In this document: positions 44,816 through 52,398 of the stretch, one piece after another | How positions within the stretch are numbered: the stretch's first letter is position 1 | Layout: each line of letters opens with the position of its first letter | Origin: Candidatus Frackibacter sp. WG13 | GTDB lineage: Bacteria; Bacillota; Halanaerobiia; Halobacteroidales; Acetohalobiaceae | DNA: 52,398 bases | Reading direction: 5' to 3' | Assembly: GCF_900114655.1 (NCBI RefSeq) | Contig: NZ_FOTT01000021.1 | Coordinates: 1-52,398, forward strand | Program-made: the position numbers and the translations under genes | The notes under the pieces: model-generated | The model's input: the letters and a program-made list of their open reading frames with translations, nothing else | The model's database searches: none | Told to the model about the DNA's origin: nothing

Positions 44816-46651
44816 GTGGTGGAAGTAAGAGTGCAGACGTCAGAAGAAGAATTGGTCTTAGAAGCAGAGATAGGAGAGAATCTTTTAGATTTTTTGCGAA
44901 AACATAATATAGAAACTGATGCTATCTGCGGTGGAAATGGAATTTGTGGTAAATGCAAAGTTAAAGTAAAAGGAGAAGTATCTGAAATAAGTCTTAAAGA
45001 ACGGGACTTATTATCTGAATTAGAGTTAGAGAGTGGAATTAGATTGGCCTGCTTAACTGAAATTCAAGGTGAAGTTGAAGTTGAGTTGATAAGTGATGGT
45101 AGAGCCACTTTAAGGATTTTGGATGAAGGTGATGAGGATGATTTAAATTTAGAGCCAACGATTAAAAAAGATTATTTAGAGTTACAAGAACCTACATTAG
45201 AAGACCAAGCTTCTGATTGGACAAGAATTATTAAGAGTATTGGTGAGGAGTTAGAAGTAGATTTAGAGTTATTAAAAGAACTACCTGATATTTTACGTGA
45301 TGCTAATTATAAAGTAACTATAGTTAGACAAGGTAAGAAAGTTATTAACATAGAAAAAGATGATACTACTGATGTAGTCTATGGTTTGGCTATTGACATA
45401 GGAACGACTACTGTTGTTGGATACTTGTTAGACTTAGTAACTGGTGTACAAGTTGGTAAAGTAGCAATGGCTAATCGGCAAAGTGATTATGGTAGTGATG
45501 TTATTTCTAGAGTCAACCATACCCTAGAAAAAGAGAGTGGGACTAAGGATCTACAAGATAGAATTATCGAAGTAATTAACCAAATCATTGATCAGTTAAT
45601 CGATAAATACGAAGTATCTAGGGAAAGAATCTATGAATTAGTCTTTGTTGGGAATACGGTTATGAGTCATCTATTATTGGGTTTGAAGACAGAGCACGTA
45701 GCCAAAGCACCATACGTTGCCGTAATTAATGAGCCACAATCTATTTCAGCAGATGAATTAGGTATTAAGCTTAATGCTTCAGTTACTTATTTACCTAATG
45801 TTGCTAGCTATGTAGGTTCAGATATAGTAGCAGGTTTGTTGACCAATAGAATAGACCAAAGTGATGATTTTAAATTATTGGTTGACTTAGGAACAAATAG
45901 TGAAATAGTTTTAGGAAATAAAGAGAAGATGATGGCTTGTGCAGCGGCGGCTGGGCCTGCTTTTGAAGGGGCTGGATTAGAGTTTGGTATGAATGGAGTG
46001 CAGGGAGCTATTGAGGAGATAAGAATTACCGATAGAATAGAAGTTAGTGTAATCGGGAACCAAAAAGCTAAAGGCATCTGTGGTTCAGGAATTATTTCTT
46101 TGTTGGCAGAGTTATTAAAAGCAGGTATCATGGATAAAAGTGGTAAACTATTGTCGCCTGATGAAATAGATAATTCAGTCGTACCGGAGATAAAAGAAAG
46201 AATTATTGAGGGTGATAAAGGTAGAAAATTGATCTTAGTCAAGGCAGAAGAAGCTGCAGGTGAAGAATCAGTAACGATCAGCCAAAAAGACATTAGAGCT
46301 ATTCAATTAGCCCAAGGTGCAATTAGAGCTGGAATTAAAATTTTAATGGATGAATTAGGAATTGGTATTGAAGAGATTGGAGAAGTTTTAATTGCAGGCG
46401 GATTTGGTAATTATATTCAACCACAAGATGCAGTAACGGTCGGTGTATTACCGACTTCTTCTAAGCTAGAAATTAGAGGAATTGGTAATGCTGCTGGTAG
46501 TGGGGCTAAAGCTGCCTTGTTGAGCCAAACCAAACGAAAAGAGTCTAAGCAGATAGCTAAACAAGTGGAGTATTTAGAATTATCCGGACGACAAGATTTT
46601 CAAAATGAGTTTATGAGTGCGATGACTTTTGAAAAATTTGAACAAAGATAG
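44816..46651 (+). CDS. RACo-like corrinoid-protein activator: 2Fe-2S ferredoxin domain plus ASKHA (DUF4445) domain
   Basis: Two adjacent GTGs at 44816 and 44819 follow AAAGGAGG; the product has 610-611 residues. A plant-type 2Fe-2S domain carries Cys38, Cys44, Cys47 and Cys79. A linker follows, then a DUF4445 actin-like domain from about 190 with LAIDIGTTTVVGYLLD, FVGNTVMSHLLLG, LLVDLGTNSEIVLGN and VLIAGGFGNYI. Such proteins reduce Co(II) corrinoids to Co(I) with ATP, repairing methyltransferase systems. No corrinoid protein or methyltransferase gene is in the window, so its client is unknown. Confidence 0.88.
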   Translation: MVEVRVQTSEEELVLEAEIGENLLDFLRKHNIETDAICGGNGICGKCKVKVKGEVSEISLKERDLLSELELESGIRLACLTEIQGEVEVELISDGRATLRILDEGDEDDLNLEPTIKKDYLELQEPTLEDQASDWTRIIKSIGEELEVDLELLKELPDILRDANYKVTIVRQGKKVINIEKDDTTDVVYGLAIDIGTTTVVGYLLDLVTGVQVGKVAMANRQSDYGSDVISRVNHTLEKESGTKDLQDRIIEVINQIIDQLIDKYEVSRERIYELVFVGNTVMSHLLLGLKTEHVAKAPYVAVINEPQSISADELGIKLNASVTYLPNVASYVGSDIVAGLLTNRIDQSDDFKLLVDLGTNSEIVLGNKEKMMACAAAAGPAFEGAGLEFGMNGVQGAIEEIRITDRIEVSVIGNQKAKGICGSGIISLLAELLKAGIMDKSGKLLSPDEIDNSVVPEIKERIIEGDKGRKLILVKAEEAAGEESVTISQKDIRAIQLAQGAIRAGIKILMDELGIGIEEIGEVLIAGGFGNYIQPQDAVTVGVLPTSSKLEIRGIGNAAGSGAKAALLSQTKRKESKQIAKQVEYLELSGRQDFQNEFMSAMTFEKFEQR

Positions 46652-51463: not shown

Positions 51464-51539
51464 ACGGGTGTAGCTCAATTGGTAGAGCACTGGACTCCAA
51501 ATCCAGGTGTTGCGGGTTCAAGTCCTGCCACCCGTGCCA
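51464..51539 (+). tRNA. tRNA-Trp (CCA), first copy
   Basis: A 76-base cloverleaf: acceptor ACGGGTG pairs with CACCCGT, discriminator G, encoded CCA. D-arm AGCTCAATTGGTAGAGC, anticodon stem CTGGA/TCCAG with anticodon CCA at 51497-51499, T-arm GCGGGTTCAAGTCCTGC. Confidence 0.96.
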
Positions 51540-51575: not shown

Positions 51576-51651
51576 ACGGGTGTAGCTCAATTGGCAGAGC
51601 ACTGGACTCCAAATCCAGGTGCTGCGGGTTCAAATCCTGCCACCCGTGCCA
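51576..51651 (+). tRNA. tRNA-Trp (CCA), second copy
   Basis: Same cloverleaf as the first copy, 36 bases downstream, with anticodon CCA at 51609-51611. It differs from the first in three loop or variable positions (D-loop T to C, variable region T to C, T-loop G to A), so both are structurally sound. Confidence 0.96.
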
Positions 51652-51664
51652 TTTTTATATTTAG

Positions 51665-51692
51665 AAACCCTTGACAGTATAAGGGTTTTATT
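51665..51692 (+). terminator. Terminator of the tRNA-Trp unit
   Basis: AAACCCTT and AAGGGTTT pair perfectly over 8 bp around GACAGTAT, followed by TATT. The hairpin overlaps the -35 element of the next promoter. Confidence 0.6.
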
Positions 51693-51699
51693 ATATAAT
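51671..51699 (+). promoter_or_regulatory. Promoter of the HesB-like gene
   Basis: Perfect TTGACA (51671-51676) and TATAAT (51694-51699) with a 17-base spacer, an ideal sigma-A promoter. It starts 55 bases before the coding region. Near the predicted start, CCCC-TACTAAC-GGGGG (51707-51722) is a G/C palindrome that resembles CsoR-family sites only loosely. Confidence 0.8.
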
Positions 51700-51753
51700 T
51701 TAAATACCCCTACTAACGGGGGAGGGGAAACAAAGATTTAAGGAGTGATTAAT

Positions 51754-52056
51754 ATGTTAACTGTTACTGATAAAGCTGTAACTAAATTTAAAGAATTATT
51801 AGCCGATGAGAATAAGCCAGAAGCTTTAATTAGAGTTTTTTTGCAGTCTATTGGCTGAGGTGGTCCTAACTATGGATTGACTCTTGTAGAGTCAAAAGAT
51901 GAAGATGATAAGGTAGTAGAGGTTAGAAATCTTAAGTTTGTTTTAAGTGAAAAGATGGAAGAGCAGTTAGAGGGAGCGACAATAGATTACAAGAAATCAT
52001 TCTTCGGCAGTGGATTTGCTATTACTGGTGGCAATCAGCCGCAGGGTTCTTGTTAG
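51754..52056 (+). CDS. HesB/IscA-like selenoprotein with an in-frame UGA
   Basis: The frame starts at the ATG behind AAGGAGTGAT and continues to TAG at 52056, with a single in-frame TGA at 51856-51858, codon 35 of 100. The context reads QSIG-U-GGPNYGLTL, where HesB-like proteins have Cys. The downstream half is well conserved in style (SFFGSGFAITGG, ending GSC). Just after the TGA, TTGACTC (51877-51883) and GAGTCAA (51889-51895) form a perfect 7-bp hairpin with loop UUGUA, about 25 bases after the UGA. This suits a bacterial SECIS. Selenocysteine HesB-like proteins are known in some anaerobes. Standard annotation would call this a pseudogene or two ORFs. Confidence 0.85.
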
Positions 52057-52245: not shown

Positions 52246-52398
52246 ATGTTTTCTAAAAATGAATTTCAACAACTGTCTTTTAATGATTCTGTCTTAAATA
52301 TGCCCGAATATCTTAAAAAAATACTTCAAGATAGCTGGGCTCATCCTTTTCAGCAGATAATATTTCCTGCAATTGATGAAGATAGATTTGAAGTGCTG
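52246..52398 (+). CDS. N-terminus of an IS1182-family-like transposase (runs off the window)
   Basis: The first 51 codons are visible, starting after TTGGGGTGCTTTT. The start MFSKNEFQQLSFNDSV followed by IFPAIDEDRFEVL fits the conserved N-terminus of IS1182-type DDE transposases. The catalytic domain is outside the window, so integrity is unknown. Confidence 0.75.
   Translation, partial: MFSKNEFQQLSFNDSVLNMPEYLKKILQDSWAHPFQQIIFPAIDEDRFEVL

Follow-up and report, generated by a model that had tools for sequence, protein, structure and literature searches.

A divergent, very probable HesB-like selenoprotein gene with an in-frame UGA codon in Candidatus Frackibacter sp. WG13

Close to the end of contig NZ_FOTT01000021.1 of Candidatus Frackibacter sp. 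WG13 lies a short hesB-like gene with a TGA inside its reading frame, which raises the question of whether this codon marks a damaged gene or is translated and, if translated, as which amino acid. The window, that is, the whole analysed stretch of 52,398 nucleotides, contains the gene and its expression signals at the following positions:

51671 to 51699, forward strand: promoter TTGACA-17-TATAAT, 12 of 12 positions of the consensus, a perfect sigma-70 promoter
51740 to 51745, forward strand: ribosome-binding site AAGGAG, identified by sequence, upstream of the ATG
51754 to 52056, forward strand: hesB-like gene, very probably of a selenoprotein, 100 residues with U35 and a predicted IscA/HesB fold
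51856 to 51858, forward strand: UGA codon 35, very probably read as selenocysteine; the same codon is TGA in 56 aligned sequences including that of the window

The probability that the UGA is read as selenocysteine (Sec) and that the product is a selenoprotein with the IscA/HesB fold is about 97%, a figure that covers the selenoprotein reading and not the biochemical role. Translated with TGA as Sec, the frame is open across the single TGA at codon 35 and runs to a terminal TAG, and the residues around the UGA are IG-U-GGPNYGL, both as described in an earlier note made from the sequence. The good promoter and ribosome site named there proved to be a full sigma-70 consensus and an AAGGAG before the ATG; identical perfect promoter hexamers, also 17 nt apart, stand upstream of the orthologues in two other genomes, G002 and G003. 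Scanning of both strands of the window for frames continued across TGA returned the hesB-like gene and one further, unsupported stretch. The expectation that a normal gene caller would break or drop such a gene is fair for plain ORF callers, but according to a 2026 review that takes HesB-like ones as its example, many selenoproteins do have RefSeq annotation (PMC13188914).

Sixty genes were fetched and aligned at the UGA codon, where 56 have TGA and 4 have TGC/TGT within a shared context G-[UC]-x-G. TGA occupies the same codon in all 56 Sec-type sequences, which span 22 families of the phylum, and the Cys homologues have TGC/TGT at the codon aligned to U35. The earlier note had proposed looking for Cys or Sec at this column, and one or the other was found in the rows examined. 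Among 398 genomes of the phylum, 107 have a match to the family and 74 of these carry the TGA form. The TGA gene is sporadic in the class of the window organism (3 of 59 genomes), and its role is therefore dispensable. A search of genome contigs with the single protein gave one distant Cys homologue as its only match.

Purifying selection persists downstream of the UGA, with dN/dS well under 1: after this codon, dN is 0.16 and dS 1.03 between the window organism (G000) and G002, and dN is 0.29 and dS 1.11 between G000 and G003. These values bear on the explanation that the gene is a pseudogene or a sequencing error, the TGA having arisen from a Cys codon by mutation in a decaying gene or by misreading. 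A change of one base (TGC/TGT to TGA) would suffice for this, and the gene is both sporadic in its class and placed beside a repeated element at the contig end; nevertheless, the presence of TGA at this codon in 55 homologues from many families, the selection past it and the covariation of the hairpin described below make this explanation extremely improbable.

The genome possesses the complete selenocysteine machinery. The genes selA (C29:9771-11135), selB (C29:7846-9732) and selC (C29:7662-7758) are consecutive on one strand, and selD (C19:7617-8537) has its own in-frame TGA followed by a hairpin, so that all four genes for which the earlier note had suggested a search are present. On contig C19 (L052), the UGA-bearing selD is preceded by an ORF resembling a yedF/tusA-type selenium gene. 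Across the 398 genomes of the phylum, selA is present in 70 of the 74 with the TGA form and in 186 of the 324 others (P=3e-11), and in only 15 of the 33 that have none but non-TGA homologues (P=3e-8), P values which, coming from related sequences, overstate independence. Three of the four TGA-form genomes with no selA match are 63-79% complete, and the fourth, G235, is 94% complete.

This co-occurrence of selA with the TGA form also speaks against a reading of the UGA outside the Sec machinery, either through near-cognate read-through by tRNA-Trp or through a genome-wide code in which UGA means Trp. Such a reading would draw on the two tandem tRNA-Trp(CCA) genes just upstream (51464-51539 and 51576-51651), but their anticodon is CCA and not UCA, all rows examined have TGA or a Cys codon at this site and never Trp, and no general TGA read-through is seen within the window. 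It is accordingly scarcely credible. As a separate observation, the two tRNA-Trp genes are near-identical and adjoin smpB and the tmRNA gene, and the neighbourhood in G002 has one copy.

In bacteria the SECIS element closely follows the UGA, and a hairpin of this kind lies downstream of the codon here:

51877 to 51895, forward strand: SECIS hairpin, stem TTGACTCT/AGAGTCAA of 8 bp, loop TGT at 51885-51887, identified by folding, shuffles and covariation

The arms (51877-51884 and 51888-51895) form 8 bp at most, 7 of which pair in the minimum free energy (MFE) fold, and the distance from the UGA is 18 nt to the start of the stem and 26 nt to the loop. The perfect 7-bp hairpin that the earlier note had placed 25 bases past the TGA is thus real, with 8 bp and a loop at 26 nt as corrected values. 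Published rules for bacterial SECIS elements (PMC13188914) specify a loop of 3-9 nt, a stem of 4-16 bp, a G among the first two nucleotides of the loop, a distance of 16-37 nt from the UGA and an MFE of at most -7.5 kcal/mol; the window hairpin satisfies every one of them with its UGU loop, 8 bp, 26 nt and -11.3 kcal/mol, the last being the MFE of a 51-nt stretch. This agreement, with the covariation of the pairs, answers the suggestion that a SECIS model be applied near the UGA. Rfam, at gathering and at permissive thresholds, gave no SECIS match and no match in the leader.

By its own folding energy the window hairpin is only mildly unusual, as 18 of 200 dinucleotide shuffles fold equally well (z -1.4), and P=0.017 with synonymous-codon shuffles. 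Its evidential weight comes instead from being conserved and covarying. A hairpin is found at this site in all 56 TGA homologues, in 42 (75%) of them with a synonymous-shuffle P<0.05, and the combined P is 4e-36 over the 56 sequences, which are related and hence not independent. The Cys homologues lack the SECIS hairpin, none of the four being significant with synonymous-codon shuffles. In 50 distinct sequences, 94.9% of the cells pair, versus 86.8% in shuffles and 21-46% when the positions are slid, and four of the seven stem pairs have changed on both sides, with compensatory changes across the phylum. One of these, from GC to AU, combines a synonymous change of Leu (TTG to TTA) with a change of Ser to Leu (TCA to TTA) in the opposite arm; we read this as RNA pairing being kept even at the cost of a residue. 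In G000, G002 and G003, which represent three genera of one family, 25 nt (51873-51897) are identical despite near-saturated synonymous sites. The loop region is UGGA in 53 of the 56 sequences and UUGUA in these three, because Leu-Asp/Glu became Leu-Val in them, with the central G retained.

Read-through by tRNA-Trp, a pseudogene and a sequencing error were all considered and rejected on the conservation of the codon, selection, SECIS covariation and the CCA anticodon. The preferred reading is that of the earlier note, selenocysteine at the UGA, and the sel genes, the Sec/Cys column, the SECIS rules and the covariation support it. Points against it are the divergent UUGUA loop, the four TGA-form genomes with no selA match and the sporadic occurrence of the gene. 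During translation, SelB with Sec-tRNA(Sec) would bind the hairpin just 3' of the UGA, selenocysteine would be inserted at residue 35, and the ribosome would continue to residue 100. The tests of coding, RNA structure and genome content agree, and the locus is a clean example.

A protein tree, which is based on few columns and leaves many forks open, groups the three orthologues of G000, G002 and G003 with high support. It also places Cys forms within a Sec group of another family, f14, in which one genome has both. For these Cys forms, a change from Sec to Cys with loss of the hairpin is likely. Family f14 includes the Cys loci L085, L138 and L139 as against L084, and genome G061 has a Cys form as well as a Sec paralogue at a different genomic location.

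Membership of the protein in the wider family is clear from profile scores, computed with C substituted for U: 50.7 bits for PF01521 (cut-off 26.3) and 71.1 for TIGR00049 (cut-off 58.8). The predicted structure (AlphaFold, pLDDT 89.9) and its comparison with the PDB, where the best matches are IscA, HI1723, AQ_1857 and SufA (Foldseek E 3e-7 to 2e-5), assign it the A-type fold. U35 aligns with the invariant first ligand cysteine (Cys35 of IscA), and the GSC that ends the protein matches the first of the tail cysteines.

HesB-like selenoproteins, which according to the earlier note exist in some anaerobes, were already listed as a family by 2005 at the latest (PMC1088965, PMC1794560). The window protein shares with them (TIGR01911; PMC1794560, PMC13188914) a small IscA/HesB fold, Sec at the first conserved HesB Cys, the UxGP motif (PMC13188914; here UGGP), a full Sec machinery in the genome and a bacterial SECIS directly after the UGA. 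It differs in its loop, UUGUA instead of the UGGA of 53 of the 56 sequences, and in a TIGR01911 score of 53.6 bits, below the cut-off of 66.35. The best narrow selenoprotein model, NF038090 (IscA_HesB_Se), covers residues 1-96 and likewise scores below its cut-off (67.7 against 85 bits). Ten further UGA homologues all fell below both cut-offs; since the window protein and ten relatives do so, it is the narrow models themselves that omit this branch, and curated NCBIfam selenoprotein models miss it. The window protein is a convincing, divergent addition to the HesB-like selenoproteins, a type known for about 20 years.

The biochemical role is a separate matter. Sec35 would take the place held by the first ligand cysteine in A-type iron-sulfur carriers and is likely to serve as a selenolate ligand of a metal or cluster, or as a group for redox or chalcogen transfer, often aided by one or more tail cysteines. 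The earlier note had Sec replacing the iron-sulfur or thiol ligand Cys of HesB proteins; the position does align, but a ligand role is suggested by position only, because the C-terminal CxC, the remaining part of the canonical ligands, is mostly absent from the Sec proteins. With the IscA/SufA/ErpA carriers the window protein shares the fold and the first-ligand position, whereas it has Sec for Cys35, a single tail cysteine (C100) in a GSC without CxC, and scores far below every equivalog cut-off, so that the carrier signature of Cys35 with a C-terminal CxC is lacking. Only 3 of the 56 Sec proteins have CxC, and 5, including that of G003 from the same family, have no tail cysteine at all. The absence of CxC from nearly all Sec proteins makes a classical iron-sulfur carrier role doubtful.

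A selenoprotein that is a true A-type carrier, acting as IscA, SufA or ErpA does with Sec as one ligand, would contest only this functional part of the explanation. The shared fold, the aligned first ligand and the finding of no other PF01521 protein in the genome speak for it. Against it stand the tail cysteines and the 10 of 13 genomes of the order in which no PF01521 protein was found; no such carrier is needed there, and an essential iron-sulfur carrier role is therefore unlikely. In Methanococcus maripaludis, 75Se labelling is reported for the HesB-like family with no clear function (PMC11097638, PMC13188914), and a HesB-like mutant was reported to be unimpaired in nitrogen fixation (PMC11097638), a further point against carriage. 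True carriage is, on balance, possible but rather unlikely. The locus sharpens the question of what selenocysteine is used for in a HesB-fold protein once the C-terminal ligand pair is gone, and the role is directly testable as the protein has only 100 residues and a mass of roughly 11 kDa.

The leader carries a further conserved feature:

51707 to 51721, forward strand: inverted repeat of a C-rich and a G-rich arm (CCCC-N7-GGGG) where the leader begins, a possible operator or leader hairpin; position conserved in G002 and G003

A CCCC/CCC-N-GGGG repeat follows the -10 box immediately in all three orthologues, from three genera (G002:C6:54280-54309 and G003:C37:8647-8675 in the other two). The same pattern stands ahead of an Fe-S membrane protein gene in G003 (G003:C19:26213) and of a ferredoxin/heterodisulfide-type cluster in G002 (G002:C26:1643), names which were read from translations, and the reversed pattern gave none. 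An operator common to the hesB-like gene and Fe-S/heterodisulfide-type clusters is possible from these sequences, as a lead and not a result. The repeat bears some resemblance to a CsoR/CstR-type operator, but no such operator is claimed. A broader proposal, improbable as a whole, is that the Sec HesB proteins form a separate functional group which, having no CxC and sometimes no other tail cysteine, gave up Fe-S carriage and took on a selenolate-based role in redox, metal or chalcogen chemistry; the family-level group of the window would in addition have its own SelB-matched SECIS loop variant, and its conserved C4-N7-G4 leader element would be controlled by a regulator that also acts on Fe-S/heterodisulfide-type genes.

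Close to the gene in both G000 and G002 are rnr, smpB, tRNA-Trp and the gene for tmRNA; in G003, the 6.3 kb around it yielded neither a tRNA gene nor one for tmRNA. Downstream, at 52246-52398, the start of a gene is cut by the contig end. This truncated gene has no Pfam match, and its first 51 residues recur identically at C41:30298, so that it is probably a mobile or insertion element. Upstream of rnr and smpB in the same window, 44816-46651 encodes a RACo-type corrinoid activation protein with Fer2 and RACo domains.
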